Assembly (NCBI RefSeq): GCF_028743515.2 | Contig: NZ_CP117969.2 | Location: 315,001 to 379,000 of the forward strand | Origin: Imtechella halotolerans | Lineage (GTDB): Bacteria; Bacteroidota; Bacteroidia; Flavobacteriales; Flavobacteriaceae | Direction of reading: 5' to 3' | DNA length: 64,000 bases | In this document: piece by piece, positions 5,793-44,861 of the stretch | Numbering within the stretch: position 1 is the first letter of the stretch | How the letters are laid out: every line of letters begins with the position of its first letter | Translations under genes and position numbers: made by a program | Notes under the pieces: model-generated | Seen by the model: the letters and a program-made list of their open reading frames with translations, nothing else | The model's database searches: none | What the model was told of the DNA's origin: nothing

Positions 5793-6638
5793 CTACGATA
5801 AATCGTTTTCTGAGTTTATTTTATCTTGAAACCTGGTAATTAGTTTGTTGAGAAAGGTGGATCTGTTCTTTTTTCGAATTTTTATTTCTGAATAGGTTTT
5901 ATAGATATTATCTAAAGTAAGATCAAATAGTTGTTCAAAAGCTTGAGCTATTGCTTTAATATCTTCATTTCCGTTATTAATGGCGTTTGAGGCTTGTAAG
6001 GCATAGATGAGTTCAACAAGTGAGGTTTTTGAGGCGGTCCATTCTAATGATTTTGTACTTATTTTTCTTTGTTCAGGCTGCTCATTATGTTCAATCTCAT
6101 TTAGTAGTGTATTTAGATATTTAATGAAATTGTACTTTCCTTTAATACGAGCCCATAAGATATCATGAGAGGTAAAGAAAGCGGGATCAAGATAGCTTAG
6201 TTCAATTATAGATAGTATTGGAAATACTTGGAATTCACGGGTGAAATATTGTTGGTCAAATTTGGTGAGTTCTTGCTCCATGTACTGTATAAAATCACAA
6301 TGCTTTGTAAAGAACTTGTTGATACGTTTTATCTTTTTCTTTAGAAATGACAATTGACTGGATACACCAATTTTTGGCATTAACAATTCGCAGGCGTATA
6401 CGTCACTATAATAGAACAGTCTACTCATAGGTTCTACTTTTATTTTTTTAAAGAAATTAATTTCTTCATCAACTGAAGAAAATCCATGTTTTACAATGTG
6501 ATTTTTTAAATGGTACAAGGCACTATTGAAAAATTGTATTCCTTCACTGGCTTGTTTCGCACTAATTCGCTTGGTGGTTTCAATATGATAATAGGTTGTT
6601 TCAATATGCTCTAACCTATAATTATACATTTTATGCAT
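5793..6638 (-). CDS. rteC: RteC-family regulator of ICE excision
   Basis: This 281-residue protein matches RteC in length and landmarks. A basic, aromatic middle region is followed by a C-terminal block at about 200-260 with SLEWTASKTSLVELIYALQA, an NGNEDI turn, FEQLFDLTLDNIYKTYSEI and the RKKNRSTFLNKL end. In CTnDOT, RteC activates the excision operon by binding inverted half-sites upstream of xis2c. Here it lies just upstream of an excisionase-like gene in the same direction. A second in-frame ATG lies three codons in. No RteA/RteB two-component genes are adjacent; the divergent neighbour is an AraC regulator instead, so the upstream control of excision may differ. Confidence 0.9.
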   Translation of the reverse strand: MHKMYNYRLEHIETTYYHIETTKRISAKQASEGIQFFNSALYHLKNHIVKHGFSSVDEEINFFKKIKVEPMSRLFYYSDVYACELLMPKIGVSSQLSFLKKKIKRINKFFTKHCDFIQYMEQELTKFDQQYFTREFQVFPILSIIELSYLDPAFFTSHDILWARIKGKYNFIKYLNTLLNEIEHNEQPEQRKISTKSLEWTASKTSLVELIYALQASNAINNGNEDIKAIAQAFEQLFDLTLDNIYKTYSEIKIRKKNRSTFLNKLITRFQDKINSENDLS

Positions 6639-7127
6639 GGTTGTTAAATTATTGGTTACGGTTATATGAGTTGGGATGGCTCTTTGAGAGGGCCTGAAAA
6701 ATACTCTTTTAGAAATAGTAACTTTCCTAAAAGCTGCGCAGCATAATTTCCTTTAGCCTATCTAGAGGTGAGATTCAAAGGAATAAAGTGGTAGATTTTT
6801 TTTAACAGATTTGGGATTCCAGTTTTAGTTATTTAAGTTATTATATTAAAAAATCTATTTGGCTGCAAACTATTTAAAATTTACTGGTTTTCAAAAGGTT
6901 AAGGTGTTTTATGATAAAGTAATCCTTTTCAGATATGAAATAATCCTTTTCAGATAGTTTTTGTATTAAATTAATATATAAGATTTTAAGATTAGTATTT
7001 AATTACTTATATTGATACTCTGATTTTTGGGTGTAAGTTCTTGAAAAGTAATTGAATATATAGATTGAACAGGGTTGGAAGTGTTTTAAATCTGGTAAAA
7101 GTTGTAGAACCAATAAATTATTTAGCC
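6639..7127. other. Divergent intergenic region rteC / araC
   Basis: About 490 bp of AT-rich DNA separate the leftward rteC and the rightward AraC gene. It contains the 10-bp palindrome GCTGCGCAGC (6733-6742), a CTTTTAG/CTAAAAG inverted pair (6706-6712, 6727-6733) close to rteC, and a 21-bp-spaced direct repeat (6920-6956) close to the AraC gene. Promoters for both genes should lie here. No coding frame is convincing. Confidence 0.6.
6920..6956. promoter_or_regulatory. Direct repeat, 16 bp at 21-bp period: candidate AraC operator
   Basis: TAATCCTTTTCAGATA occurs at 6920-6935 and again, identically, at 6941-6956. The 21-bp period places both copies on the same face of the helix. AraC-family proteins classically bind direct half-sites spaced by two helical turns. 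The repeats lie about 110-170 bp upstream of the AraC-family start, followed by A/T-rich promoter-like DNA, so autoregulation is likely. Confidence 0.65.
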
Positions 7128-8069
7128 ATGTTTAGAATTGAAAATCAATCACGATTAAAAGGTATTTATAAGCAGCTACTTGAGATCTACAAAGGAAATT
7201 ATTCAAGTCGTATTGATCGCACTGATTATTCCGATGATTTGGAAGTATTAACAGTGTTGTTGAATATGGTTACTGAAAAATTACAGCCTTTATCAGTACT
7301 ACAAGAAGATATTGATTTTAAAAATTCCTCCACTTCCTTAAATATTGTTATTATAGTAAATAATGATTTTAAGATAATGGAATCAAACAATAGTTTTTCT
7401 CAACTGGTAGGCAAAGAGGGAACACAACTTTATAATCAACCTCTTGAAAATTATTTAGCAAACCAATCTATAGAAGAATGGTATAGGTTAAAGAAGGAAT
7501 TAACGCATACTTCTACTATCGAAAATAAGATCAATTTATGGTTTAAAACAAACCACGCTAGACCGTGCTCAGGGATATGTACAATAGTTTCATTTCCAAG
7601 AACTTCTTTGTTGTATGGAAAAAGAATTTTAATAGCGAGCATTAGGGTTGAAAATAAAATATCATGTCGAAGTGTTCATAAAGACCAATCAAGTTTGGGA
7701 CGTACAATGCTAGATGTTAAGAAACAGAAAAAAGTAATTCCAGCACTCAATGGTCGCGATATTTCAATTCTCATTTCTATAGAAAATCATGTAAAGAATA
7801 ACTTGCAAATGCCATTAGTTACCCTAAGGGAGTTGGCTCATTCTTTTGGAACTAATGAGTACAAAGTAAAAATTGGATTTAAAAAACTTTTTGGAGTATC
7901 TGTTTTTCAATTTTTGAAAAATGAACGATTAAAGAAAGCACATGCCTTAGTTAAATTCACTAGTATTCCAATTAAAGAAATAGCATTAACAGTGGGTTTT
8001 AAACAACCTAATCATATGTCAAGAGAATTCAAAAGGCGATATGGATATAATCCTACCGAACTGAGATAA
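7128..8069 (+). CDS. AraC-family transcriptional regulator with PAS-like sensor
   Basis: The C-terminal ~100 residues form two helix-turn-helix units. The first includes LRELAHSFGTNEYKVKIGFK, the second IPIKEIALTVGFKQPNHMSR, followed by the family ending EFKRRYGYNPTELR. The N-terminal half (VVIIVNNDFKIMESNNSFSQ region) looks like a PAS domain, so a small ligand or redox signal is possible. The frame can begin at a TTG at 7065, but an ATG at 7128 gives a more usual start and a 313-residue protein. It is divergent from rteC and upstream of the metal-type cargo cluster; target genes are inferred, with the 6920-6956 repeats as the likely autoregulatory site. No receiver or kinase domain is present. 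Confidence 0.85.
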   Translation: MFRIENQSRLKGIYKQLLEIYKGNYSSRIDRTDYSDDLEVLTVLLNMVTEKLQPLSVLQEDIDFKNSSTSLNIVIIVNNDFKIMESNNSFSQLVGKEGTQLYNQPLENYLANQSIEEWYRLKKELTHTSTIENKINLWFKTNHARPCSGICTIVSFPRTSLLYGKRILIASIRVENKISCRSVHKDQSSLGRTMLDVKKQKKVIPALNGRDISILISIENHVKNNLQMPLVTLRELAHSFGTNEYKVKIGFKKLFGVSVFQFLKNERLKKAHALVKFTSIPIKEIALTVGFKQPNHMSREFKRRYGYNPTELR

Positions 8070-8185
8070 GGTAAAATTTTGGGAATACCAGATGTAAATT
8101 TTATGATTTTTTGCTAGATGGAGGTGTTTGTTTTTAACAGACTTCTAACATATTATGCGTATCAATTTGATAGATTTGTACCCAT

Positions 8186-8497
8186 ATGGATTACAGATAC
8201 CTTAGGAAAATATCGACACTGTTTTTTCTTTTCGTTTTTCTATCAACGAAGGTTTCTGGCTTGCATATATTGAATCATGGTGATGACCATGAAGATTTAG
8301 CACATTGTATCCTTTGTGACCATGCGACTGCATTTAACGGCACACCTGTTTTATTAGCAAGTGTACAAGAGTTAGAAGTTAAAGTCGTTCCAGTTTTTGT
8401 TGATAAAGAAATTACTTCTTTATACGATGTTCCCTTCTTTTCAACTAATTTTTCTCACAAGTTATTTACGAGGCCTCCTCCACAATTCGTACACTAG
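8186..8497 (+). CDS. Small exported His/Cys-rich protein (DUF2946-like layout)
   Basis: The protein has 103 residues. An N-terminal hydrophobic segment (STLFFLFVFLSTKVSG, about residues 9-25) acts as signal or anchor. It is followed by a dense putative metal site, HILNHGDDHEDLAHCILCDHA, which combines several His and Asp/Glu residues with CxxC. The C-terminus ends in RPPPQFVH, as in many DUF2946 proteins that occur near copper genes in Proteobacteria; the resemblance is by layout only. It lies between the AraC gene and the ABC transporter operon. Metal binding, perhaps copper, is inferred. Start ATG at 8186; there is no alternative nearby. Confidence 0.65.
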   Translation: MDYRYLRKISTLFFLFVFLSTKVSGLHILNHGDDHEDLAHCILCDHATAFNGTPVLLASVQELEVKVVPVFVDKEITSLYDVPFFSTNFSHKLFTRPPPQFVH

Positions 8498-8910
8498 GTA
8501 TCATACATTCCTCTTTTATATAGGTTTGAATACTATGCGTTGACATGGTATTCTAGAGCTATATACATTTTTATATTCGGATACTTTTATCTCTGGATAC
8601 TTTTGGTTTATTACCCAATTGGGCATTGTCCTATTTTGAGTATTCTTCCAAAGAAAAGGTAGCCCTTAATTGAATCATGATACCTTGTTGTCAACATATA
8701 ACAACGGCGAATTGCTCGCTGTTGATTTTATGCCTGATAGCCATCCCTATTGTGATATCTAAATCCTTTATAAATGAATCATTTATAAAGAATATTTAGC
8801 ATATCTAAATCTATTATTTTGCTGTATACCAACACTTTGTATAAAGGGGTTGTCTATGCCTGTTATTTATAAGTATTACAAAATAATTGTTTTAAAACAA
8901 AAATCAAGTT
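8498..8910. other. Non-coding region upstream of the ABC/TonB cargo operon
   Basis: These 413 bp contain no convincing gene. There is a 9-bp imperfect hairpin at 8702-8724 (CAACGGCGA / TCGCTGTTG, one G-T pair) followed by ATTTTA, perhaps a weak terminator. Next come an 11-bp direct repeat (8755-8765 and 8801-8811) and a 25-bp palindrome between its copies. The operon promoter must lie between here and 8911. Confidence 0.5.
8766..8790. promoter_or_regulatory. Perfect 12-bp-arm palindrome flanked by 11-bp direct repeats
   Basis: CTTTATAAATGA (8766-8777) and its exact reverse complement (8779-8790) surround a single A. The repeat ATATCTAAATC lies immediately left (8755-8765) and again at 8801-8811. 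The structure is about 120 bp upstream of the ABC ATPase start. It is a candidate dimeric-repressor operator for the operon; a miniature insertion with target duplication is an alternative. Confidence 0.55.
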
Positions 8911-9630
8911 ATGATAATTACAAAAGAACTTACCAAAAAATACGGTGATTTTACTGCGTTAACCAATTTGAATCTCCATATCAATTCTGGAGAGATATAC
9001 TGTTTGTTAGGCGCTAATGGAGCTGGAAAATCTACCACTATTAATCTTTTACTAAATTATATTAATCCTACCTCAGGCCAGGCCTACATAAACGGAATGG
9101 ACGTACAAAAACAGGGTAGGGAAACCAAAAAGTATATAGCTTACATACCAGAAAATTTGATGCTTTATCCAAGTCTTACGGCTATTGAGAATTTGGACTA
9201 CTTTTCAGGAATTGCTGGAATCAAACTTCAGAGAAAATCGTTAGAGGAACTTCTTTCGAAAGCCGGATTACAGTCAGAGGCGTTTTATAAACCTACCGTA
9301 GCTTTCTCTAAAGGAATGAGACAAAAGGTAGGGATCGCTATTGCATTGGCTAAGCAAGCCAAAGTATTGTTACTTGACGAACCTACTTCCGGATTAGACC
9401 CTAAAGCAAGTAATGAATTTGGGCATTTACTCCTACAGCTACAAAAAGAAGGAGTGGCTATTTTAATGGCCACACATGATCTTTTTAGAGCTAAGGAGAT
9501 TGCAACGCACATTGGGATTATGAAGGGAGGAATACTTCAGCACGAATTTAAAGCCTCTGAAATCACCTTGCAAAAATTAGAAGAAGTGTATTTACAAACC
9601 ATGAACTATAAAGAGTTGCATCATGATTAA
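8911..9630 (+). CDS. ABC transporter ATP-binding protein (NosF/CcmA-type)
   Basis: This 239-residue nucleotide-binding domain has Walker A GANGAGKST near residue 37, a Q-loop region near YIPENLMLYP, an atypical signature FSKGMRQKVGIA, Walker B VLLLDEPTSGLDP and switch His in ATHDLFRA. The SKGMR signature and two DUF3526/ABC-2-type permeases downstream place it with NosF-like subunits, which serve copper-site maturation in nos clusters and other cargo elsewhere. No nos genes are present, so only the family resemblance should be carried over. Its last 8 bp overlap the next gene, so it leads a five-gene rightward operon. Confidence 0.9.
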   Translation: MIITKELTKKYGDFTALTNLNLHINSGEIYCLLGANGAGKSTTINLLLNYINPTSGQAYINGMDVQKQGRETKKYIAYIPENLMLYPSLTAIENLDYFSGIAGIKLQRKSLEELLSKAGLQSEAFYKPTVAFSKGMRQKVGIAIALAKQAKVLLLDEPTSGLDPKASNEFGHLLLQLQKEGVAILMATHDLFRAKEIATHIGIMKGGILQHEFKASEITLQKLEEVYLQTMNYKELHHD

Positions 9631-11029
9631 AAGAACATTACTTAAGGAATTAAAGGAACTTTTCAGAGATGGTCGAATACGAATAACAATTGGGATTGTA
9701 GTACTACTTTTGGGAACAGCCATCTGGGTAAGTGGGAGTCAGTATATAGAAGCAAAAGCTAATTTTGAAGCTTTCACTGAATCAGAGAGAGAGACCTGGG
9801 AAGGTCAAGGGGAGAAGAATCCCCATTCTGCAGCACATTATGGTACCTATGCATTTAAACCAGAATACCCCCTAGGGTTATTGGATAAAGGGATTGATAA
9901 ATTCACGGGAACCTCCATATTTTTAGAAGCTCATAAGCGCAATGAAGCCCAGTATATACCTATAGCGGATAGAACTGGTTTGGCGCGTTTTGGTGAATTA
10001 ACCCCAGACTTTATATTATTGTTTATTATTCCCTTGTTGATTATTTTAATGGGATATAATAGTTATACAAAAGAAAATGAGCAAGGAACATTCTTATTGT
10101 TAAAAAGTCAAGGTGTAAAAAAACACTCGTTGCTTTTGGGGAAATGGACAGCATTATTCATTCCTATAGCAATAATATCTTTGGTTCTTTTTTTAATAGC
10201 TGGACTTATCATCTCTAATATTAAAGATTTAGGAAGCTTTAGTTGGGGTTCCTTGGGGATTTTACTTCTAATTTATTGGGGATATTATATCGTATTTATA
10301 AACATAACGTTATTTGTTTCTCGAATTTCTAAGAAATCAGCTATTGCGCTAGTGAGTTTATTAGGAGTGTGGATCGTTTCCTGTTTATTAATTCCTAAAG
10401 TTGCAAGCAATATTGCCAACTCAAAGTACCCCTATCCAACTAGGCAGCAATTTACTTCTACCATTAAGAAGGAAAAGGAGGAAGGGTTAGATGGACATAA
10501 TCCCTGGAGTGAAGCCGCTAAGCAACTGGAAAAGGAGACCCTTGCTCAATATAATGTGGATAGTGTACATAAACTACCCTTTAATTATGATGGATACAGA
10601 ATGCAAAAAGGGGAGGAACATGAGTCTGAAGTATACAGGAAACACTATCAGAAACTAAGACAACAATTTGCTAATCAGGCCTCTACATATAGAGCATTAT
10701 CTGTGTTGTCTCCCTTTTTGCCCACTCGATTTCTGTCTATGGGAATTGCTCGAACTGATTATTATACTCATTGGGATTTTGAAGACAAGGTAGAAGATTA
10801 TCGATTGTCTAAAGTTCAATTTCTCAATGAATATTTTGCTAAAAACTCCAAGTATGGAGATTGGGGCTTTGAAGCTGATGCAAAATTATGGGAAAAGCTA
10901 CCTGAGTTTACCTACCAATATCAACCATTTAGTGAAGTGTTAAGGCAACAAAAATCGTCTTTATTCATTTTGGGGGGCTGGTTACTCTTTACTTTTTTCC
11001 TATTGTTTAACGTTAAAAATAAGATCTAA
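9623..11029 (+). CDS. ABC-2 type permease, DUF3526 family (first of two)
   Basis: This 468-residue membrane protein has one N-terminal helix (ITIGIVVLLLGTAIWVSG), a large extracytoplasmic loop, helices at about 130-150, 185-205, 215-235 and 250-270, a second large soluble loop at about 270-430, and a final helix near the C-terminus. The soluble loops between helices are typical of DUF3526/NosY-related permeases. The central YNSYTKENEQGTFLLLKSQG segment is the conserved cytoplasmic coupling region. It overlaps the ATPase gene and is 1 bp from the second permease. The two permeases share layout but little sequence, suggesting a heterodimeric transporter. Confidence 0.85.
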   Translation: MIKRTLLKELKELFRDGRIRITIGIVVLLLGTAIWVSGSQYIEAKANFEAFTESERETWEGQGEKNPHSAAHYGTYAFKPEYPLGLLDKGIDKFTGTSIFLEAHKRNEAQYIPIADRTGLARFGELTPDFILLFIIPLLIILMGYNSYTKENEQGTFLLLKSQGVKKHSLLLGKWTALFIPIAIISLVLFLIAGLIISNIKDLGSFSWGSLGILLLIYWGYYIVFINITLFVSRISKKSAIALVSLLGVWIVSCLLIPKVASNIANSKYPYPTRQQFTSTIKKEKEEGLDGHNPWSEAAKQLEKETLAQYNVDSVHKLPFNYDGYRMQKGEEHESEVYRKHYQKLRQQFANQASTYRALSVLSPFLPTRFLSMGIARTDYYTHWDFEDKVEDYRLSKVQFLNEYFAKNSKYGDWGFEADAKLWEKLPEFTYQYQPFSEVLRQQKSSLFILGGWLLFTFFLLFNVKNKI

Positions 11030-11030
11030 A

Positions 11031-12452
11031 ATGTTAGTATATAATTTTAAGTATGAATTAAAAATTCTATACCGAAATCGGTGGGTTCAGCTCCTCACAG
11101 TTCTTTTATTGGTTTTGTTTGTTTTTGCTGGATATAACGGTAAACAAAGAGTAGATAAAAGAATGGGGGATATACAAGCAGCTCAAACTATGGTAGAGTT
11201 GTCTGACGCAAAAACCCTGGCAAACTTAAAAGCCATTGAAAATGGAGAAGACCTGGGATTAAGCAATTGGATCATTCCAACCTACCCAATGAATGTTGGA
11301 AATTTAAGTCCCAGATTGGTGGCTATGCCTGCAAACGAAATGGCTTTCATGGCCACTGGGCAGAGTGATATTTACACTCATTTTGTGATGCCAACAGTGT
11401 TTGGTGATGATTTTGCCATTAATGTCTCCGAAATGTCGAGTCCAATCCAGTTGCTTTTCGGGAGTTTTGATCTGGTGTTTGTTGTGGTGTATTTATTACC
11501 GTTGATTATTATTGCGTTTTCCTATAATATTCTTTCTGAGGAAAAGGAACGCGGATCACTGCGTTTATTGGCCTCTCAACCTATTTCAATCCGTCTTTGG
11601 GTGTTGCAAAAAATTGGGGTTAGACTATTTTGGATGTTACTTATAATATTTTTAGTAACAGCCCTTGTTTTTTTACTAAACACTATTAATTCGTGGGATG
11701 GATTTGTTACATTTTTAGTGAGCTGTAGTGTGTACATGTTTTTCTGGTTCACTTTGGCTTTTGCTGTAAATATCACTGTAGGTAAATCGGTACAGAATGC
11801 TTTTGCTCTATTGGGTTTTTGGATAGTGTTTGTATTGTTAATACCCTCTGGTGTAAATCAATTAAGTGATAACCTATATCCTATTCCTCCTAGGAGTGAA
11901 CTTATTAATGAAGTGAGGGAGCATAAAGCAGAAGCAACTAAAATGCAGGATGAAATATTGGATAATTTTCTTCGTGATCATCCGGAATATGCCATGTCAG
12001 AGGGAGAACAATCTCGTTCCTTTTGGCATAATTATATGGCATCTCAAGAAGTTGTGAAGACCCAACTTGAACCATTATTATTTGAATATGAAAAGAATCT
12101 TGGCCTTAGACATCAATGGGTTGACAAACTGCAATGGGTGTCTCCAGCAATTTTGACCCAACAAGCACTAGTAAGCCGAGCAGGGACTTCGAAGATTGAT
12201 TATGAAAATTTTTGGAAACAAGCCTCTCAATTTGGTGAGATTTGGAAAGGCTATTTTATTCCAATGTTATATACAAATCAGACGTTTACTTCTTCTCATT
12301 TTCAAGAGTTACCGGAATTTAAGTATGACTTTAAAAGTCATAGAATTTTCGATGTAAGAGTGTTTGGAGTGCTACTACTAACGGTATTAATTATGCTTTT
12401 AACTGCATTGAAATACAAACTATCAAAAAAGAAAAATGAAATCATATTATAA
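11031..12452 (+). CDS. ABC-2 type permease, DUF3526 family (second of two)
   Basis: This 473-residue protein has the same plan as the preceding permease: an N-terminal helix (VQLLTVLLLVLFVFAGY), a first extracytoplasmic loop, a helix block at about 145-275 containing SYNILSEEKERGSLRLLAS, a second soluble loop at about 280-425 and a C-terminal helix (VFGVLLLTVLIMLLTAL). The paired arrangement probably arose by an old duplication and yields a two-permease transporter with the ATPase at 8911. It lies 8 bp before the TonB receptor, strongly implying joint function across both membranes. Confidence 0.85.
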   Translation: MLVYNFKYELKILYRNRWVQLLTVLLLVLFVFAGYNGKQRVDKRMGDIQAAQTMVELSDAKTLANLKAIENGEDLGLSNWIIPTYPMNVGNLSPRLVAMPANEMAFMATGQSDIYTHFVMPTVFGDDFAINVSEMSSPIQLLFGSFDLVFVVVYLLPLIIIAFSYNILSEEKERGSLRLLASQPISIRLWVLQKIGVRLFWMLLIIFLVTALVFLLNTINSWDGFVTFLVSCSVYMFFWFTLAFAVNITVGKSVQNAFALLGFWIVFVLLIPSGVNQLSDNLYPIPPRSELINEVREHKAEATKMQDEILDNFLRDHPEYAMSEGEQSRSFWHNYMASQEVVKTQLEPLLFEYEKNLGLRHQWVDKLQWVSPAILTQQALVSRAGTSKIDYENFWKQASQFGEIWKGYFIPMLYTNQTFTSSHFQELPEFKYDFKSHRIFDVRVFGVLLLTVLIMLLTALKYKLSKKKNEIIL

Positions 12453-12460
12453 ATAAGGAT

Positions 12461-14779
12461 ATGAGAGATAAACAAATATTTTTATGGATAAACTTATTGA
12501 TATGGTTGTTTATTCAAGAGGTAAATGGACAAAATAAAATCCATGGAACCGTATTGGACGCTAATGGAAAATACCCTTTGATTGGAGCTTCGGTAATGAT
12601 CGAAGAAACGAGTCAAGGTTCTATAACTGATGCACATGGAGGGTTTGAGATTACGAATGTAATTTTTCCTGTGCAATTAAAGATTTCATTTGTTGGTTAT
12701 GAGACTATTATACTGAATGTAAAGGAATATCCTGCAGATTTTATAGTGAGATTGATTGAAAAGCCTCAGGAATTAAAAGAAATAGTTGTGTCTGCTTTTG
12801 AAGGAAGTAAACGACTTAAGGAAATCCCTGCGTCCGTAGCTAATGTTGGATTTCGTGAAATAGAAAGGTATAACTTAACAAGCCCTCAACAAGCTCTTAA
12901 TACCTTACCAGGGGTTAAATTGGAGTCTACAACAATTGGAAGATATTCCCTTAAGATTCGGGGAGGAAACCTTGGGGATATAGGTCATGATGATGGGTAT
13001 AAGACCTATTGGAATGGTATTCCTGTAACTTTAGCAAGTGGAGGACTTCCATTGGGACAATTTGATTATGGTAGTGTAGAGACGATGACTATTATTAAGG
13101 GGCCATCGGGAAGTATTTATGGTTCAGGATTAAGTGGCGTTTTATTGTTAGAAAATAGAAAACCTTCGTATAAACAATCTAGTATACAAACCGATTTTTT
13201 TGGAGGAAGTTATGGGACCTATCGTTATGGGCTTACCTTCACCACCGGAGGTCAAAATAGTGATGTAAGATTACAGTATTCCAATGTTCATACAGATGGC
13301 TATAGAGAGGAGGCTGCTTCAGATAATAAATACGTGAATTTGAACGCTAGATTTTTCCCCAACGAAAAGCAAAGTTTATCTCTTATTGCACAGTATGTTG
13401 ATCGCAGCTATGGCATACCTGGGAATCTTACGGCAGAGCAAGTAGCGGAAGACCCAAGACAATCTACTTTTTCTAGAGAATTGGACAATGGTTTAAGGGG
13501 TAAAAATATGCTAATAGGAGCCTCTCATACTTTGCGTTTTGGTAAAGGTTGGGAAAACAACACTTCTTTTAGTTATCAAGTCTATGAAGGTAATTTTTTA
13601 ATTGGTAATCAGTATTTTACTGTTGCTGATAGGAATATAACAACTGCATTTTCTTTAAGAACGGCCACTACTTACAACTTTAAAGGTCTATTTGGAAATC
13701 ATGCGAAATGGATTTTTGGTGCAGAATACACACGTGGAATAAATGAATTTAATGAATTTGGAAATGGTTTTGAAAGTGCTATTGTAAGTGCGAGGACTGC
13801 AACTGACCGTTCTGTTCTCGGGTTTAGCCAACTCGAATTTGAACTTCCAAAGGATATAACTTTAACTCTAGGTGCAAGTTTTAATAATTTTCGTTTAGAT
13901 TTTCAAGAACGACTTTTACCTATGGAGAATCCTTATTTTTCAAAGGAAGTGAATGACTTTTCACCTCGAATAGCCTTGACAAAGAAAATTAGTGAAGGAT
14001 TATTTTTATATACCAATGTGAGCAAGGGGTTTGCTCCTCCACCAAGAGGTGCTATAGATAATAACGGAACCCAATTAAACTTTAACTTAGAGTCTACTAA
14101 AGGCTGGAACAAGGAGTTAGGAATACGTGGAAATACATTTAGTGGTCAATTTTTTTATGATATAGCGCTTTATAAATTAGATGTAAAGGATGTAATTCTT
14201 CCAAGGGTCTCTAGTAATTTACAAGGGATTGAACTCATTGTTAACGAAAATGCCGGAGCTATAAATCGCAGTGGAATTGAAGTAAGGACAGAATATTTGG
14301 TAAGGTTGAGACCAGAAAGCAAGTTCTCAAAGGTTGGAGTATTTAGCAGTTATACTTACATGAATCATAGATTTGAAACTTATAATACTATCGAAACTGA
14401 TCAAAATGGACAGACCACAGAAATTAGTTTTAACGGTAAGCATGTGCCTGGAATCCACCCTCATACCTTGGTATCGGGCCTAGATCTTGTGTCCAAATAT
14501 GGAGTGTACCTTAATGGTACCTATTCATTTTATGATGCAGTGTACTTGAACAATAGTAATGCTATTTCCGACAACGCCTATCAACTTGTTGATGTTAAAA
14601 TTGGTTTTAAAAATTCATTGAATACCAATTGTTATTTGGATGTTTTTGTTGGGGGTAATAACCTATTAAATACCAGTTACAGTTCAACTCATCAGTATAA
14701 TTCCTCTTTTGGAGCCTATTATGATCCGGCGCCCGGAAGAAACTTTTACTCCGGAGTTAACATTAAGTATACTTTTTAG
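12461..14779 (+). CDS. TonB-dependent outer-membrane receptor with carboxypeptidase-like N-domain
   Basis: This 772-residue protein starts with a signal peptide (cleavage near VNG-Q). A CarboxypepD_reg-like domain follows (HGTVLDANGKYPLIGASVMI through residue ~110). The plug spans about 110-230, with the IKGPSGSIYGSGLSGVLLLE segment usual for TonB plugs. A long 22-strand barrel ends in YSGVNIKYTF with the expected terminal Phe. The plug and barrel resemble siderophore or metal-complex receptors. It is translated with the NosFYY-like transporter (8 bp gap), so it probably handles the same substrate. No Cys-rich or His-rich external loop identifies that substrate. Confidence 0.9.
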   Translation: MRDKQIFLWINLLIWLFIQEVNGQNKIHGTVLDANGKYPLIGASVMIEETSQGSITDAHGGFEITNVIFPVQLKISFVGYETIILNVKEYPADFIVRLIEKPQELKEIVVSAFEGSKRLKEIPASVANVGFREIERYNLTSPQQALNTLPGVKLESTTIGRYSLKIRGGNLGDIGHDDGYKTYWNGIPVTLASGGLPLGQFDYGSVETMTIIKGPSGSIYGSGLSGVLLLENRKPSYKQSSIQTDFFGGSYGTYRYGLTFTTGGQNSDVRLQYSNVHTDGYREEAASDNKYVNLNARFFPNEKQSLSLIAQYVDRSYGIPGNLTAEQVAEDPRQSTFSRELDNGLRGKNMLIGASHTLRFGKGWENNTSFSYQVYEGNFLIGNQYFTVADRNITTAFSLRTATTYNFKGLFGNHAKWIFGAEYTRGINEFNEFGNGFESAIVSARTATDRSVLGFSQLEFELPKDITLTLGASFNNFRLDFQERLLPMENPYFSKEVNDFSPRIALTKKISEGLFLYTNVSKGFAPPPRGAIDNNGTQLNFNLESTKGWNKELGIRGNTFSGQFFYDIALYKLDVKDVILPRVSSNLQGIELIVNENAGAINRSGIEVRTEYLVRLRPESKFSKVGVFSSYTYMNHRFETYNTIETDQNGQTTEISFNGKHVPGIHPHTLVSGLDLVSKYGVYLNGTYSFYDAVYLNNSNAISDNAYQLVDVKIGFKNSLNTNCYLDVFVGGNNLLNTSYSSTHQYNSSFGAYYDPAPGRNFYSGVNIKYTF

Positions 14780-14893
14780 GGAGTTAACTGCGCATTGTAT
14801 TTGTTTGTTAATCAATAGAATATTTATTGAAAGTAACCGGTGTATCACCATTTTAGGATAGGGCTGAAATGCGTAGTTACTGGTGTTATGAAG

Positions 14894-14921
14894 GCTGTCT
14901 CAGATTTGAGGCAGCTTTTTT
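14894..14921 (+). terminator. Intrinsic terminator after the TonB receptor gene
   Basis: GCTGTCTCA (14894-14902) pairs with TGAGGCAGC (14907-14915) around a 4-nt loop, with one G-T pair, followed by six T. It ends the ABC/TonB operon about 115 bp after the receptor stop, so the TPR lipoprotein at 15046 probably has its own promoter or is reached by read-through. Confidence 0.8.
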
Positions 14922-15045
14922 AATGATATTCAATTGAAAGGACCTTTTTGGTTGAATAAATTTCTCTTGAAAATACTATATTTTGTTTTAACTTTAGGGG
15001 TAATTATAAAATACATCCTTATTGTGTATTGAAAAACAGTTAGTT

Positions 15046-16770
15046 ATGGAGATTAGATTTGTATTGCTGGTACTGTTTGTTTTTTTATCCGGATGTAAAA
15101 ATTCAGACCAAAAAAAAGAAAAGTTAGTTGTTACTGCGACTAAAATGTGTGCTCCTATTACAACGGATAGAAGTTGGTATTTAAGTGAAAAGAAAGCTCC
15201 TTTGTTTGAGGGAATGGGGGAATTGCATTTTCCTATATCCACCAAAAATGAATTGGTTCAAAAGTATGTTAATCAAGGGCTTGTTCTAGCGTATGGCTTT
15301 AATCATGCCGAGGCTGCTAGATCATTTTATTATGCCACCAAACTTGACCCTAATTGTGCAATGGCATTTTGGGGGTATGCCTATGTTTTAGGGCCCAACT
15401 ATAATGCCGGTATGGATACAGATAATTACAGGTATGCTTATCAGGCCATTCAGAAGGCACTAACACTTTCAAAGGAAAAAAATGTAACACAAAGAGAAAG
15501 AGATCTTATCCAGGCGCTTTCAACAAGATATGTGAGTAGCCCTGTAGAGGATCGGTTGGATTTGGATATAGCGTATGCCGATGCTATGAAAGCACTCTTT
15601 AAAACGTATTCTGAGGATGCGGATATTGGAGTTCTCTATGTAGAATCTTTAATGAATCTTCATCCCTGGGATTTATATGACAAAGAAGGTAAAGAGAAGA
15701 AGTGGACTCCAGAAATTGTTTCAGTTCTGGAAAAAATAATTGAAAAATATCCTAGGCATCCAGGTGCTCACCATTTTTATATTCATGCCGTGGAGGCATC
15801 AAATATCCCTGAGAGAGCCCTTAAAAGTGCTGAATTGTTTGATAAAGGATTGGTAGCCAATGCTGGGCATTTAGTACATATGCCATCTCATGTGTATATA
15901 CGAACTGGAGATTACCACAAGGGGACTTTGGCCAATTTACAGTCTATCAAGGTAGACAGTGCCTATGTGACTGCCTGCAATGCACAGGGTGCTTATCCAT
16001 TGGCCTATTACCCCCATAACCAGCACTTCATGGCGGCAACGGCAACTTTGGAAGGGAATAGTAAATGGGCACTATATGCTGCTGAAGCCTTAAAAAGCAC
16101 TATAAATAAACAGTTAATGAAAGACCCAGATTGGAGTACCATTCAGCACTATTATACCATCCCGTATTATGTTTATGTGAAGTTTGGAAAGTGGGATCGT
16201 ATTCTTGACATGGAAAATGAATTTCCTGAACTAGTGTACCCTACAGCAATTTGGCATTATGCAAGAGGTATGTCATATACAGGAAAGGGTAATTTAATGG
16301 CTGCTAAAATGGAGCTTGAGGCTCTTGAAAAGGTGATAGGTACTCATAAAGAACTTAAAGAAATAACCATTTGGAATATAAATTCGGTATATGATTTAGT
16401 CCAAATTGCGCAAAAAGTATTAAAGGCATCCATAGTAGCACAAGAAGGTGACTTTTTACAAAGTATTGATTTATTGAAGGATGCTGTCGCCATTGAAGAT
16501 TCCCTAAATTATAATGAACCACCAGATTGGTTTTTTTCTGTACGGCATTATTTAGGAGCTGTCCAATTGGAAGCAGGAGCATATGAAAATGCCATTAGCA
16601 CCTATCAGCAAGATTTGAGAAATTTACCTAAAAATGGCTGGGCATTAAGAGGATTAAGTTTGGCTTATTCAAAATTAGGAGATGAGTCAAACAGAAAGAG
16701 AATAGAAGAGATGTTTACTACAGCTTGGCGTACAGCAGACATGAAAATCAACACATCGATTGTTAAATAA
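15046..16770 (+). CDS. TPR-repeat lipoprotein of the cargo cluster
   Basis: The preferred start is the ATG at 15046, giving 574 residues that begin with a lipoprotein signal (FVLLVLFVFLSGC, Cys near residue 18); upstream TTG codons in frame have no signal-like context. The body has tetratricopeptide units, clear at about 75-160 (GLVLAYGFNHAEAARSFYYA, then a second TKLDPNCAMAFWGYAYVLGP) and near the end (AISTYQQDLRNLPKNGWALR). A conserved PSHVYIRTGDYHKG and HNQHFMAATATLEG region is rich in His. The family is common in Bacteroidetes and of unknown function. It lies downstream of the TonB receptor, separated by a terminator. Confidence 0.8.
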   Translation: MEIRFVLLVLFVFLSGCKNSDQKKEKLVVTATKMCAPITTDRSWYLSEKKAPLFEGMGELHFPISTKNELVQKYVNQGLVLAYGFNHAEAARSFYYATKLDPNCAMAFWGYAYVLGPNYNAGMDTDNYRYAYQAIQKALTLSKEKNVTQRERDLIQALSTRYVSSPVEDRLDLDIAYADAMKALFKTYSEDADIGVLYVESLMNLHPWDLYDKEGKEKKWTPEIVSVLEKIIEKYPRHPGAHHFYIHAVEASNIPERALKSAELFDKGLVANAGHLVHMPSHVYIRTGDYHKGTLANLQSIKVDSAYVTACNAQGAYPLAYYPHNQHFMAATATLEGNSKWALYAAEALKSTINKQLMKDPDWSTIQHYYTIPYYVYVKFGKWDRILDMENEFPELVYPTAIWHYARGMSYTGKGNLMAAKMELEALEKVIGTHKELKEITIWNINSVYDLVQIAQKVLKASIVAQEGDFLQSIDLLKDAVAIEDSLNYNEPPDWFFSVRHYLGAVQLEAGAYENAISTYQQDLRNLPKNGWALRGLSLAYSKLGDESNRKRIEEMFTTAWRTADMKINTSIVK

Positions 16771-16804
16771 GTTTAAAATCTAAAGCACCCAATGTAGTTT
16801 CGAA

Positions 16805-17281
16805 TTACATACGATAGATGATTTTGAAATGTTCACAAATAATCATCATGTTTTCATCGAATTTCTCACCATAAGGTTCCATTTCACGTGTAAAAAATGC
16901 CTCGTGTACTCTTTTCCAGTATGCTAAAGATTTGTCTCCTTCACCTTCAATTTCTGCAAACTCGGCGGTGATTTCATTATAAGGAGTCGGTACAACTTTA
17001 ATGGTTTCAATGATGGCTTTTGCATTTCCTTCCCAGTCTGTAATAATATACTGATCACCAACTTCAGGGAGTTTCTCATGATTCTTTTCAAACCACCAAA
17101 GTGAGGTGGCTGTTGCTTGTTTAATTCCTTGGACAACTAATGATGCACATTGATCTGCATCTTCTTTATTGTCACAAAAATAAAAGGAAATGGGTTCTTG
17201 TATTCGTTTATTCATGGGGTTTTCTTGTAGAAAACGCTCCCAAATCAATGTAACAGACTCTTTTTTATTGCTTTCTTTCAT
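16805..17281 (-). CDS. ASCH domain protein
   Basis: This 158-residue protein is a complete ASCH-fold protein: N-terminal helix, then FYFCDNKEDADQCASLVVQG, a KQATATSLWWFEKN motif, and a beta-barrel with GDQYIITDWEGNAKAIIET. ASCH domains are PUA-like and are thought to bind RNA or nucleotides; one bacterial subgroup hydrolyses modified nucleosides such as N4-acetylcytidine. The G-K-K/Q-x-A-T-x-S-L pattern is conserved here. It is convergent with the TPR gene (34 bp apart) and appears to be a single-gene unit. Its relation to the other cargo is unknown. Confidence 0.85.
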   Translation of the reverse strand: MKESNKKESVTLIWERFLQENPMNKRIQEPISFYFCDNKEDADQCASLVVQGIKQATATSLWWFEKNHEKLPEVGDQYIITDWEGNAKAIIETIKVVPTPYNEITAEFAEIEGEGDKSLAYWKRVHEAFFTREMEPYGEKFDENMMIICEHFKIIYRM

Positions 17282-17503
17282 TTCTCCAAAATTGCTGAAG
17301 CTGTAAAATAACTGAATTTTTATGATTGATGTTCTTTATAAGTACATTTTGAATCATTTTTTTAAAAAAAACTGTTTTCAAAGGGGATTGTAGGTTTTTG
17401 GTTTATCTTTAGCGTAGTATTTCTAATAACGAAGATGAAACCGTACATTACTGTATATGGTCATCGTATTTCATTTATAATCAGATGTATAGTTTAAAAT
17501 AAT

Positions 17504-19072
17504 ATGAAAAATACAGCTTCATTTTTATCATTGTTTATTGTTATTTCACTGACTGGATCTCTTTATGCCCAGAAGATGACTTCTTCTAAAATTGATGCGT
17601 TGCTTGAAAGAGTGTTGGAATCAACGCCATCTGTTGGTATTGCTGTTGCAGTAGTTAAAGATGGAAAGCAGATTCATTCAAAGGGTTATGGATTTAAATC
17701 TATTAATGGTAAGGAAAAGGTGGATCAACACACTCTTTTTGCTATAGCTTCTAATTCAAAAGCCTTTACAGCAGCTGCATTAGCCATATTGGTGGATGAA
17801 GGAAAATTAAAATGGGATGACAAAGTAGTTACTCATATTCCAGAATTTACCATGTATAATGAGTATGTTACTGCCAACTTTACTATAGTAGATCTATTGA
17901 CACATCGAAGTGGCCTTGGACTTGGGGCTGGAGATTTAATGATTTTCCCAGATGGTGCAGATTTTACAGTAGCTGATGTACTTAAAAGCTTTCAATATCA
18001 AAAACCTGTTTCCGCATTTCGAACCAAATATGATTATGACAATTTACTTTATATTGTTGCTGGTGAAGTGGTAGCTAGAATTAGCGGTCAAAGCTGGGTA
18101 GATTTTATCCAGACACGAATTCTAGATCCACTAGAGATGAAAAATGCTGTGCCTACAGCATCTAAACTAAGCCCTAATGCAAACCTAGCCCTTCCACATG
18201 ACTCTGAAGGATCGAAAATAAAACAATTAACCACTTATGATAGCGAATTGTTGGCCGCAGCAGGAGGAATTTTTGCGAGCGTTAATGATTTGTCTAAGTG
18301 GATGTTGATGCAATTGAATAACGGGAAATATGGTGCGAATTTATCCAATGAATTATTTTCCTTGAAACAGCAAGATCAAATGTGGTATCCACATACTAAT
18401 TTACGTTTTTCAACTAAACCCAATCCTAGAACAAAGCAACATTTTGCAGCTTATGGACTAGGTTGGGTAATCAATGATAAACAAGGAAAAATTGTGGTAA
18501 GCCATACTGGCGGTCTGCCTGGTATGTTATCCAAAACAGTGTTGGTTCCAGAACTTAACTTAGGAATAGTAGTACTTACCAATTCACTACCTGGAGGCAA
18601 TGCATTTACCTCTATCCCTGAAATGATTTTGGATTCTTATCTTGAAATTGAAGAACATGATTGGATCAAAGAATTGGCTGAAAGAGCAAAATCCAAAGGG
18701 AATGAATCTGATTCTGTATTGACTAGTGTTTGGAATACAGTTGCAGAAAACCAATCTGTTAAAGTAGATTTTTCTAATTATGTAGGTACCTATATAGACA
18801 ATTGGTTTGGAGAAGTTGAGATTTCTGAAAAGAATGGTAAACTTTGGTTCACCTCAAAGCGATCTCCAAAACTAAATGGACAAATGCTGTATTATAAGGC
18901 AACTACCTTCGCTGTTAAATGGGACTATAAGGATATGGAAGCTGATGCTTTTGCCATTTTTAGTTTAGATGAAGAAGGAAAAGCAACAGGAATAAAAATG
19001 AAAGGTATTTCACCAAATATGGATTTTAGTTTTGATTTTCACGATTTGGACCTAAAACGGATACCAGATTAG
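17504..19072 (+). CDS. Serine hydrolase, beta-lactamase class C family
   Basis: This 522-residue exported protein has a signal peptide (LFIVISLTGSLYA-Q). The PF00144 domain at about 28-380 has the active-site SxxK as S83-N-S-K86, a YDYDN motif (the YxN Tyr) near residue 183, and an HTGG motif near 345 in place of KTG. The last ~100 residues (FSNYVGTYIDNWFGEVEISE) form a DUF3471-like C-terminal domain. Such proteins are usually peptidases or esterases of unknown substrate rather than antibiotic-degrading enzymes. It stands alone between divergent and parallel neighbours; no resistance claim can be made. Confidence 0.88.
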   Translation: MKNTASFLSLFIVISLTGSLYAQKMTSSKIDALLERVLESTPSVGIAVAVVKDGKQIHSKGYGFKSINGKEKVDQHTLFAIASNSKAFTAAALAILVDEGKLKWDDKVVTHIPEFTMYNEYVTANFTIVDLLTHRSGLGLGAGDLMIFPDGADFTVADVLKSFQYQKPVSAFRTKYDYDNLLYIVAGEVVARISGQSWVDFIQTRILDPLEMKNAVPTASKLSPNANLALPHDSEGSKIKQLTTYDSELLAAAGGIFASVNDLSKWMLMQLNNGKYGANLSNELFSLKQQDQMWYPHTNLRFSTKPNPRTKQHFAAYGLGWVINDKQGKIVVSHTGGLPGMLSKTVLVPELNLGIVVLTNSLPGGNAFTSIPEMILDSYLEIEEHDWIKELAERAKSKGNESDSVLTSVWNTVAENQSVKVDFSNYVGTYIDNWFGEVEISEKNGKLWFTSKRSPKLNGQMLYYKATTFAVKWDYKDMEADAFAIFSLDEEGKATGIKMKGISPNMDFSFDFHDLDLKRIPD

Positions 19073-19192
19073 CGGACATTGTTCCTTGAATATAGTTGGC
19101 AGGAATGGTATTCATTTATATTTACAATGGTATATATTCAATAAAAGAGTAGCTAGGACAAGAAAGGAATACAGATATAATACCTTATTATA

Positions 19193-19927
19193 ATGTTTCG
19201 TCATCAAGGGAGAAGTAGAACATTAAAGCACAATATTAATATAGCTATTGTACTTTCATTTGTTGCTGGAATTGTTAATGTTACAGGCTTTTTATCCTTT
19301 AAGCAACTTACTACAAATGTAACTGGTCATTTTGCATTGTTTATTAATGATGTGGCTGAGGTTGAGTTTTGGAAAGGAACCATTTACTTTCTCTACATTT
19401 TTTCATTTCTTTTTGGTTCATTCTTATCAAGTTTTCTAATTGAAAAATTTAAAGAAAGTAAAAAGCTAAATGTTTATGTGGTACCAACCCTACTTGAAAG
19501 TTTCATCTTAGTATCGATCTCTTTGGTAAGTAATTTTATGGAAATGAAATATCCAGATTTTATAGTTTGTTTGTTACTTTTTGCCATGGGCCTACAAAAT
19601 TCATTTGTGACTAAGATTTCAAACGCTGTAGTCAGAACAACGCATTTAACGGGTCTTTTTACAGATTTAGGAATTGATCTATCTCATCTATATTTTTCCA
19701 AAGTACCTTCCTTCAAAGCAAAAATAAAAGCAACTATCAGGCTGAGAGTGTACATTATTTTGTGCTTTTTTACCGGTGGACTAGTTGGTGGGTTTTTGTA
19801 TACCAAAATTGGATTAGGGTTAAATACCCTAAGTTTTGGCGCTTTTATTTTAATAGGGAGTTTGTTTTATGATGATTTTAGATTTAGATATATAAAGGCT
19901 AAGAGAAAATACTACCGAAGGATTTAA
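19193..19927 (+). CDS. DUF1275 (YoaK-like) membrane protein
   Basis: The protein has 244 residues and about six membrane segments. The family N-terminal motif is visible as SFVAGIVNVTGFLSFKQLTT followed by NVTGHF; then come LFGSFLSSFLIE, LLLFAMGLQNSFVTKIS and VVRTTHLTGLFTDLGIDLSH, all typical of DUF1275. Function of the family is unknown. The stop overlaps that of the convergent mobilisation gene by 4 bp, so cargo and conjugation genes abut directly. It is the last cargo gene. Confidence 0.88.
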   Translation: MFRHQGRSRTLKHNINIAIVLSFVAGIVNVTGFLSFKQLTTNVTGHFALFINDVAEVEFWKGTIYFLYIFSFLFGSFLSSFLIEKFKESKKLNVYVVPTLLESFILVSISLVSNFMEMKYPDFIVCLLLFAMGLQNSFVTKISNAVVRTTHLTGLFTDLGIDLSHLYFSKVPSFKAKIKATIRLRVYIILCFFTGGLVGGFLYTKIGLGLNTLSFGAFILIGSLFYDDFRFRYIKAKRKYYRRI

Positions 19928-21363
19928 GGTTCCTTAAAAATGGATTGAATTTCACGGTGAATCCGTTCAAAATTTAACTGTATATCATGGTCAGAGTATA
20001 AGGCCTTTTTGGCAGGTAATTCCTTATGTATTTTTGGTAATGGAAATCGTAATTTTTTATCTTTTCCGTCTGCAAAAGCAATAAATTCTCCCGTTTGAAG
20101 ACGAAAGAAACTGTTTGATCTTCGTTTGGCAACCTCTTTCTCTCCCTTGGTTATTCGACTTTCTAGGCTAAAACCACTACTTCTACTCACACTTAGAGTA
20201 GGTTGTTTTATGATTTCGAAAAATTGCTCATAGTGCTTAGCTGTTTCTGGTTCGTTTACTTTTCCAAAGAATTGATAAGAAAGATTACTAAGTATCGCCT
20301 TACTAGTCTTTTCTCCATACAGAATATCGTTTTGTATTTTATCCTGCAATACATATACAGTGCTAATATTGTAGCTTCGTAAGGTAGCTGGAATACGATG
20401 CATATTGGGTAATTTGATAGTAGAGGCTTCTTCCATTAGAAGAAAAGAAGGATCTCTATGCCGTACACTCATTTGTTTGATAGCGGTATGAATAATAGAG
20501 GCAATAATTGGTGCATAGAAAGCATCATATTGTGGACTGTTGCTAATGGCTATAATAGCCTTATGATGGGGGTGATTTATTTGTAAAGGGACTTCATTTT
20601 TTGACAATACCATAAAAAGTCTTTTAGAACTAATTTTCTTAAAAACATTGGCTAAACTACTTTTTACACCGGCTGTTTGTTTGTCTGAGTTTATCCCTGC
20701 TATAAAGGCACCAGCCATACTTTTTGAGGTTAGATCTGAGTTTAAAAAGGAAACCAGACTCTTGGTGTCAAGGTATTGGAAAATGGCAATGACATGAGGA
20801 ATGGTGCAAAATGATGGATAGTGGGTTCGCAGTTTCCAGATTAGCCCAGCTAATAGTCCTTCCATTGCATCAGTGAAAAATTTATTACTTCCAGACACCT
20901 GTGTAGGGTTATGATCCAGTAAATTTTCTATTAGTACTTTAGAGATTTCATGTACACTTTCCTCATTAGGGAGGTATATTGGTGAGATTGGATTTACTCT
21001 GTATCTAATCTCATCAAAAGAGATGATAAAGAAGGGAATCTTTCTGTTCCGAAAGAGTGGCCAAGCTATTTCAGTTAGTTCACAGTCTTTATAGTCATGG
21101 ATAATTCCTGAAAATTGATACTTGCTAAAATGTTGGAGAAGGGCGTAAATTACACTTTCAGTTTTACCGCTACCAGCTGCCCCAATGATGCAGATTCCCC
21201 TGCGGATATTACTCATTTGAAACCTACCGTTGGCTAGTTTTAGTCGAACTCTAAAGGACACTTCCTCCTTATATTTTCTGTTACTAAGGAGACTCCAAAT
21301 AATAATCAGAGTAATTGCATAAGGCAAAAGCGAAACAAGTATTTGTGCAGTAGGGTGTTTCAT
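19924..21363 (-). CDS. mobC: Type IV coupling protein (MobC/TraG/VirD4-like)
   Basis: The protein has 479 residues. An N-terminal membrane segment (ILVSLLPYAITLIIIWSLL) precedes a Walker A motif IIGAAGSGKTESV near residue 67 and a Walker B-like SFLLMEEAST near 305. The TVYVLQDKIQND segment is typical of VirD4/TraG-type T4CPs. T4CPs link the relaxase-DNA complex to the mating channel. The gene overlaps the relaxase gene by 4 bp. At 479 residues it is shorter than F TraD but in the range of Bacteroidetes MobC. Together with the VirB4-type ATPase at 1063-3477 it completes both ATPases needed for transfer. Confidence 0.85.
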   Translation of the reverse strand: MKHPTAQILVSLLPYAITLIIIWSLLSNRKYKEEVSFRVRLKLANGRFQMSNIRRGICIIGAAGSGKTESVIYALLQHFSKYQFSGIIHDYKDCELTEIAWPLFRNRKIPFFIISFDEIRYRVNPISPIYLPNEESVHEISKVLIENLLDHNPTQVSGSNKFFTDAMEGLLAGLIWKLRTHYPSFCTIPHVIAIFQYLDTKSLVSFLNSDLTSKSMAGAFIAGINSDKQTAGVKSSLANVFKKISSKRLFMVLSKNEVPLQINHPHHKAIIAISNSPQYDAFYAPIIASIIHTAIKQMSVRHRDPSFLLMEEASTIKLPNMHRIPATLRSYNISTVYVLQDKIQNDILYGEKTSKAILSNLSYQFFGKVNEPETAKHYEQFFEIIKQPTLSVSRSSGFSLESRITKGEKEVAKRRSNSFFRLQTGEFIAFADGKDKKLRFPLPKIHKELPAKKALYSDHDIQLNFERIHREIQSIFKEP

Positions 21364-44489: not shown

Positions 44490-44561
44490 AACGGTTTCAA
44501 AAATAAGATTAATAAATCTTTTTAGTATAGAATTAATAAAATGTTTTACTTTCGCAAATGA

Positions 44562-44779: not shown

Positions 44780-44861
44780 TTTTCAAACAAATGATTGTCA
44801 AACTTTCGGGATAAAAGTTTGCGTATGGAATCCATACTTTTTTCCCATAATTAAACAGTTT

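Follow-up and report, generated by a model that had tools for sequence, protein, structure and literature searches.

Gene content of the locus

We analysed 64,000 nucleotides (nt) of the Imtechella halotolerans genome (contig NZ_CP117969.2, positions 315,001 to 379,000; this whole stretch is called the window below) and concentrated on a cluster lying between conjugation genes, in which a small open reading frame (ORF) precedes an ATP-binding cassette (ABC) ATPase, two ABC-2 permeases with a DUF3526 region (P1 and P2) and a TonB-dependent receptor. The original prediction, made from the sequence alone, had grouped these genes with an AraC gene and a TPR lipoprotein as a mobile envelope system for copper or another metal. 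Every gene it named is there, the gaps between the ATPase, P1, P2 and receptor genes are exactly -8, +1 and +8 bp, and conjugation genes do stand on both flanks: a TraG P-loop gene, RteC, a coupling protein and DUF5712. The proposal of a mobile system of the envelope, with a NosFY-like ABC transporter and a metal as its probable substrate, is upheld. Two features had been passed over: the 413-nt gap behind the small ORF, and the RPPP motif at its end. The features of the cluster are:

8186..8497, forward strand: leader ORF, 103 residues, with a hydrophobic N-terminus, a His/Asp-rich stretch, CxxC and a C-terminal RPPP
8306..8317, forward strand: leader CxxC codons (C41-C44), proposed metal sensor, conserved in three alignments
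8471..8482, forward strand: leader RPPP codons (R96-P99), proposed arrest motif, 51 residues after CxxC and 4 before the end
8498..8910, forward strand: structured gap between leader and ATPase, 413 nt, proposed attenuator (from RNA folding)
8911..9630, forward strand: ABC ATPase (PF00005, 110 bits)
9623..11029, forward strand: ABC-2 permease P1 with DUF3526 (PF12040, 102 bits; cut-off 25)
11031..12452, forward strand: ABC-2 permease P2 with DUF3526 (PF12040, 84 bits; cut-off 25)
12461..14779, forward strand: TonB-dependent receptor, PqqU-like, without the signature for pyrroloquinoline quinone (PQQ) (family matches, solved relative)

The small ORF as a candidate leader peptide

The small ORF carries HILNHGDDHEDLAHCILCDHA; its hydrophobic N-terminus was judged by eye. 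It ends 413 nt before the ATPase gene, and the AraC gene lies further upstream on the same strand. In an alignment of 12 leader sequences, residues H27, H31, C41, C44, R96 and P97-P99 are invariant. Matches were found in 11 of 60 genomes at E ≤0.1, the window's own included, and 12 of the 15 loci around them have the leader directly upstream of a TonB receptor or an ATPase; L048 is a fragment, while L050 and L052 look like chance.

Between CxxC and RxPP the sequence is variable and the length is kept: the 14 RPPP members all have a spacing of 49-51 residues, the 14 further leaders with a CxxC one of 43-47 (counted from the first of two in L108), and the larger leader set spans 42-51. Three ORFs (L090, L092 and L164) have RxPP and no CxxC. 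The window leader also has the attributes used for CutF-like proteins, being shorter than 150 residues, with PP at most 15 residues from its end and the next same-strand gene within 1000 nt. Because of the RPPP end and the fixed CxxC-RxPP spacing, the ORF is likely best read as a leader peptide of the CruR/CutF type rather than as a metal carrier. The His/Cys protein proposed originally is therefore present, with its role changed to a regulatory one.

A genuine periplasmic metal chaperone, whose RPPP end would be unconnected with translation, could account for the export-like N-terminus and the His/Cys stretch. It fits poorly with a variable stretch of fixed length, with a terminal motif placed 2-4 residues from the end in 28 of 28 CxxC leaders, and with the position of the leader ORF, first and with a gap behind it in the clusters inspected; we regard it as improbable.

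Published arrest peptides give the leader reading its substance. CruR, a DUF2946 protein, has CXXC and RAPP at a spacing of 45, conserved within one or two residues, and a long gap behind it; it is considered to stall at RAPP when copper is absent, so that the bfrG receptor operon is transcribed, whereas copper on its CXXC relieves the stall and Rho then ends transcription (PMC9426467). Its arrest was demonstrated in vitro, and RxPP with G, A, S or P at x is reported to induce arrest (PMC12992588). The residues found at x in our leaders (A, P, S and G) coincide with that set. Replacing the Ala of RAPP by Pro left ApdP near wild type in Bacillus subtilis, and partly active in Escherichia coli, as was also the case in ApdA (PMC12992588).

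Diverged leaders extend the family. PF12040 drew 43 of 296 phylum genomes, and in many of the loci so drawn the position of the leader is taken by a diverged ORF with a hydrophobic start, His, CxxC, a weakly conserved stretch and an R[APS]PP or KGPP end. A profile of the RPPP leaders, with at most 16 candidates per genome scored, found only 5 of the same 296 genomes, so the RPPP subfamily looks narrow. Compared as profiles, the RPPP family and the leaders of other phyla align over 41 columns, from the start to CxxC, with a probability of 90.7. One betaproteobacterial leader (L166) reaches the DUF2946 family at 28.9 bits (PF11162, cut-off 23.7); L097 (16.0) and L161 (13.8) stay below. A CxxC about 50 residues from the peptidyl-transferase centre probably lies just outside the ribosomal tunnel.

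Recurrence of the leader and the DUF3526 operon

We defined a full leader as CxxC, 42-51 residues, then R[APGS]PP or KGPP at the end, and counted it when it lay on the strand of the first core gene, at most 900 nt ahead of that gene. It is present in 41 of 147 DUF3526 loci, where about 0.44 would be expected from the off-target ORF rate, a background itself raised by leaders farther upstream in the same clusters (L102, L105, L109). Loci truncated at contig ends were scored as misses. The set omits L264 and L265, which have no P1, as well as L038-L043 and L046-L057, and includes a few repeats of one genome place (L193/L263, L198/L262, L205/L261 and L089/L207). By source, the leaders outside the PDZ type number 10/26 in the phylum draw, 2/8 on plasmids, 22/80 on genome contigs, 2/16 in other genome draws, 4/4 in leader-selected loci and 1/1 in the window; loci found by PF12040 only hold, besides 10/26 full leaders, two ORFs with RxPP but without CxxC. 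None of the 12 PDZ-type DUF3526 loci has one. Record titles and annotation place the leaders in Bacteroidota, Acidobacteriota, Gemmatimonadota, Latescibacterota and Pseudomonadota.

The terminal motif [RK][APGS]PP closes 26 of 1165 distinct ORFs, and all 26 precede DUF3526 operons or sister TonB receptor genes, although 12 of these loci were originally found by leader likeness. Over 373,897 residues the motif occurs 35 times.

The set of leader, ATPase and two DUF3526 permeases, with or without a TonB receptor, recurs in many genomes, beyond what chance would give; a search for the ordered set was the check originally proposed. The order, however, is not fixed, since four occur: ATPase-P1-P2-receptor, ATPase-receptor-P1-P2, receptor-P1-P2-ATPase and receptor-ATPase-P1-P2. 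The outer-membrane partner also differs among clusters. One scan confirmed at least 547 relatives of P1, with no Caulobacter locus among the matches listed; PF12040 was found in 4 of 385 genomes of an alphaproteobacterial draw, and DUF3526 in only C. vibrioides among 14 control genomes. The DUF3526 ABC/TonB operon is a real, recurrent system.

The literature searched holds no mention of DUF3526 or of DUF4625. The main texts searched (supplements lay outside this coverage) make no link between a DUF3526 transporter and an arrest-peptide leader, and as far as they go the link seems unpublished. The term 'ABC' is absent from the main texts of the CruR (PMC9426467) and CutF (PMC9973294) papers, and the ABC mentions shown in the EMBO paper are ABCF proteins.

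Loci L115-L126 hold a distinct DUF3526 type behind a protein of about 499 residues and a PDZ protein, with an NPCBM-associated domain in L115; leader and PHxxAH motif are both absent from them. In L043 and L042, RPPP sister leaders head an operon of a TonB receptor, a protein of about 270 residues and DUF4625, and the L043 operon has two COG0523 genes, one of them ZigA-like.

Transporter and receptor

The P1 model (mean pLDDT, predicted local distance difference test, 88.8) has NosY as its nearest solved structure (Foldseek 1e-4). Against NosY 7znq_y, VIA-align gives Z 21.2 with a root-mean-square deviation of 2.9 over 246 aligned residues; ABCA3, the next other family, scores Z 17.2. Most ABC-2 permeases with the NosY-like fold export their substrates or act as mechanical transmitters. 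The loop that follows the first long helix of P1 keeps His104 in 100%, His68 and His72 in 99-100% and Glu102 in 98% of 126 rows, but up to 80 of these rows were fetched by a pattern requiring His68 and His72, so only the conservation of His104 is free of bias there. Among independently found P1 proteins, 47 of 55 retain both motifs by pattern; the first motif occurs in 0 of 24 PDZ-type permeases.

The receptor is 22-28% identical to its relatives. Among proteins of known structure, PqqU, an importer of PQQ, matches it best (1.8e-29). One may suppose that the receptor imports an organic cofactor or metallophore similar to PQQ, that the ABC transporter handles the same molecule and that the leader responds to metal indirectly. 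A PQQ-type dehydrogenase (PF07995 kin) does lie within 1.5 kb of 6 of 19 receptor relatives, with two more weak matches, and the window's genome encodes one. Against this, none of the three PqqU signature residues (an aromatic at 99, Arg304, Arg365) is found: the receptor has Gly, a gap and Phe in the multiple alignment and Gly, Phe and Gly in the pairwise one, and position 99 is Tyr or Phe in 19/19 relatives. No relative, however, carries the full signature in the multiple alignment either. PQQ uptake as such was rejected on the missing signature, and we consider the broader proposal of a PQQ-like cargo rather unlikely. As an observation apart, PqqU-like receptors in L002, L003 and L005-L008 adjoin a PQQ-type dehydrogenase without the full signature in the alignment; going by these sequences, the published signature may be too narrow for Flavobacteriales.

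Compared with 29 targets (selected receptors and outer-membrane proteins, plus the long L268 ORFs), the receptor gave good matches only to the PqqU-like L053 and L054, and weak ones to L163 and L166; as a query over the genome contigs it gave none. A DUF5916 protein takes the receptor slot in L128 (the same as L051) and in L268. No nos family was found among the ten cargo proteins scanned.

The gap between leader and ATPase

RNA folding of positions 8470-8930 gave a z-score of -4.86, and none of 100 shuffles was equally stable. No Rfam family rises above threshold in the gap; an opposite-strand match to transfer-messenger RNA at 8402-8482 (12.8 bits against a gathering score of 47) was dismissed as chance. 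We also tried a model in which a stalled ribosome lifts the masking of a start codon. The mean change was 0.0016 (n=30), a negative result, and transcriptional attenuation is preferred because this release test failed. The window gap has a hairpin and then ATTTTATG, the layout of an intrinsic terminator; as none was matched in the gaps of 24 of 30 loci, Rho-type attenuation is taken, purely by analogy, as the default assumption.

Which metal the operon may serve

Gene context points to zinc rather than copper, since ZigA-type GTPases lie near DUF3526 loci of the window's own P1 clade; of the original proposal, a metal probably stands, and copper is no longer the favoured one. In a quick tree of P1 (141 different among 145 rows, several long branches, only the window clade being used), the window falls in a clade of seven rows with a support of 99. 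The window, L127 and L128 have leaders, L103 and L268 have COG0523 genes, and L102 and L105 have both. A COG0523 gene thus lies within 8 kb in 4 of the 6 other rows, and in 23 of 135 non-PDZ loci overall. ZigA is the best match of the GTPases of L103 (569.7 bits), L268 (567.5) and L105 (292.0) and of L043, beside a sister leader (565.1; cut-off 600), the L102 GTPase lying outside this scoring; against CobW the same proteins score 155-159 bits. Further neighbours are MacB-like FtsX and DUF3299 in L105, MacB-like FtsX and MerC-DUF3299 in L094, and MerC with a CDF-family gene in L268. The FtsX and DUF3299 neighbourhoods of L105 and L094 are reminiscent of PA4063-66, reported to be under Zur control.

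Copper would leave the same architecture and leader mechanism in place, as a CruR-like copper switch on a NosFY-like uptake or delivery operon. CruR and CutF both sense copper, CruR-type leaders often precede TonB receptor genes, and the nearest solved fold of P1 is NosY. Yet no copper family was found among 40 chosen kin-locus proteins scanned, where MerC-like proteins appear in L094 and L268; P1 and P2 have no Cys and a single Met (M373) among residues conserved at 85% or more; TIGR01778 (the OprC copper receptor) is absent from the receptor's 11 families at E ≤0.01; and, in the part of PMC12992588 covered, copper-related RAPP/RGPP upstream ORFs are reported missing from Bacteroidota by a survey that did not include RPPP. 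With the ZigA-type GTPases of the P1 clade, these observations make copper an unlikely reading, which we keep as a rival without preferring it.

Single-mismatch matches to the Caulobacter-type Zur box occur in AT-rich Bacteroidota loci, some just before leaders (L095:15470, L105:5096), and may be due to chance. Separately, in L200 a perfect 20-bp palindrome, TGCAATGTTATAACATTGCA (7101-7120), lies 28 nt ahead of a TonB receptor ORF, the first gene of a cluster of receptor, ATPase, two DUF3526 genes, ATPase and FtsX; from its sequence, it looks like a Zur/Fur-type operator.

Proposed mechanism and evidence against it

We propose, with slightly better than even confidence, a metal-uptake operon carried on a mobile element, its substrate most likely being zinc or a complex of zinc, and its expression being gated by a nascent leader peptide. 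When metal is scarce, a ribosome on the leader would stall at RPPP and expression would continue into the operon. Metal binding to the emerging His/CxxC stretch would relieve the stall, and attenuation of the operon would follow in the gap, on the pattern of Bordetella CruR. The TonB receptor would bring the metal or metal complex into the periplasm, and the P1/P2/ATPase complex would move it on, either inward or outward; the loop with three His and one Glu is expected to be periplasmic. The gene plan and its recurrence are seen in the sequences; what we infer here is the arrest, the metal and the transport direction, the latter two being less certain than the leader reading. The more general statement, that the leader is a zinc-sensing arrest peptide and attenuates a widespread class of DUF3526 ABC/TonB uptake operons across five or more phyla, is put forward tentatively, at somewhat less than even confidence; if true, the leader would be the first such peptide for zinc, judging by the cited papers.

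Several results weigh against this proposal, in addition to the failed start-codon release and the pattern-fetched P1 rows described above. A full leader within 900 nt is missing from 94 of 135 non-PDZ loci, some of them cut by contig ends, and the window leader matches no Pfam family, DUF2946 included, at E ≤10. Gap RNAs are mixed over 30 loci, the window included: z is -2 or lower in 10. In some contexts RPPP is a weaker motif than RAPP. Any change of the RAPP Ala in ApcA abolished arrest (PMC12992588), most of the natural RAPP-like sequences from E. coli and B. subtilis that were tested arrested inefficiently (PMC10987492), and the proline motif of CutF alone gave no strong stall. The Arg of RxPP is reported as irreplaceable (PMC12992588), and four leaders (L096, L100, L266 and L273) end in KGPP; Lys lies outside the reported arrest motif, which counts against arrest in those four.

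On the side of the metal, the two relatives of the leader that have been studied, CruR and CutF, are copper sensors, and NosY is part of a copper-enzyme pathway. The host genome has only three, weak, cobW matches (31.2, 24.5 and 19.7-22.3 bits; cut-off 20.7). The Caulobacter-type Zur box GTTATNNNATAAC, with at most one mismatch, occurs in window positions 1-24000 only at 9877, inside P1, and is absent from the five plasmid clusters of Proteobacteria and from the scanned alphaproteobacterial loci, the consensus being that of Caulobacter and the Bacteroidota box possibly differing. Finally, some DUF3526 clusters carry a DUF4374 or Peripla_BP_2 protein, which suggests other substrates.

Cargo interval and mobile element

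The surrounding genes are:

5793..6638, reverse strand: RteC, left cargo border, outside the system (PF09357, 203.7 bits)
7065..8069, forward strand: AraC-type regulator, adjoining gene (TTG start; alternative ATG at 7128; HTH_18, 64.5 bits)
15022..16770, forward strand: TPR lipoprotein, passenger (TTG start; in-frame ATG at 15046; sub-threshold TPR_19)
16805..17281, reverse strand: ASCH-domain protein, passenger (PF04266)
17504..19072, forward strand: serine hydrolase, beta-lactamase-like family with DUF3471, passenger (PF00144, PF11954)
19193..19927, forward strand: DUF1275 membrane protein, passenger (PF06912)
19924..21363, reverse strand: conjugative coupling protein, right cargo border (TraG-D_C, TrwB_AAD_bind, T4SS-DNA_transf)

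Kin of the coupling protein occur in 50 of 199 genomes of the window's family (E ≤1e-80), and 20 of the 74 regions listed around such matches, the window's included, were inspected. In one of them, L283, the coupling protein, RteC, an ATPase-like gene and TraG keep the order and strand of the window, but the coupling protein and RteC lie 94 bp apart, against 13.3 kb of cargo in the window; this supports reading the interval as cargo. The remaining 19 are arranged unlike the window. L283 is in itself an empty version of the cargo site in a related element.

The AraC regulator and the TPR lipoprotein had been counted as members of the unit, a membership for which comparison of the loci gives no support. 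No TPR match was found in the 146 other DUF3526 loci; the lipoprotein family is present in 54 of 296 genomes and has no Pfam match except the sub-threshold TPR_19. An AraC-type HTH is found about 1.5-4 kb away in a few loci (for example L045, L090, L098, L114 and L128), and directly before the cluster, as in the window, in none of the other clusters inspected; the regulator's PAS_9 match is weak and under its cut-off.

The ASCH, hydrolase, DUF1275 and TPR genes appear unrelated to the transporter, as would be expected if the whole interval were passive cargo without a common function. For the cluster itself that is very improbable, given its tight gaps and the fact that leader, ATPase and two permeases are found together in five phyla.

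Elsewhere in the window, a cobalamin riboswitch (44549-44795, forward strand) sits at the beginning of an ORF for a TonB receptor, and the other strand carries FecCD and Peripla_BP_2 genes; the locus (42339-46742) is probably an ordinary B12 uptake locus.

DUF3526 transporters are common, and their ties to arrest-type leaders and ZigA-type GTPases give them a likely role. If the proposed mechanism is right, metal sensing by nascent chains would extend from copper towards zinc, and regulator and transporter would move together as a cassette on a conjugative element, so that a host would gain uptake together with metal sensing and would not need a Zur of its own.

Comparison with known systems

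A close parallel is the CruR/bfrG leader (PMC9426467), which shares with the window a small exported-looking first ORF, CXXC, a C-terminal RxPP, a long gap and a TonB receptor in the operon. The window leader differs in RPPP for RAPP, a spacing of 51 for 45 and the missing Pfam DUF2946 match; the operon has an ABC-2 transporter instead of a PepSY protein, and its metal is probably zinc. Many CutF-like proteins come from Bacteroidota; TonB genes often follow them, and not every member is regarded as specific for copper (PMC9973294), the phylum and the TonB neighbours being noted there in general terms. CutF itself works through a stem-loop on the ribosome-binding site, whereas start masking is unsupported for the window.

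The transporter resembles NosFY of NosDFY(L) in pairing an ATPase with an ABC-2 permease of the same fold, and departs from it in having two different permeases, an extra DUF3526 region and no nos gene in the cluster. PqqU (YncD), the PQQ importer of E. coli (PMC12124388), is the nearest solved relative of the receptor, which lacks its binding signature. Among studied operons, the same plan is found in Caulobacter znuK/znuGHI, in which a TonB receptor adjoins an ABC-2 ATPase and two ABC-2 permeases, as in the window. That operon is Zur-repressed and held to be an importer; unlike the window cluster, it has a Zur operator, and no leader is reported for it in the part of the source covered (PMC4176598).

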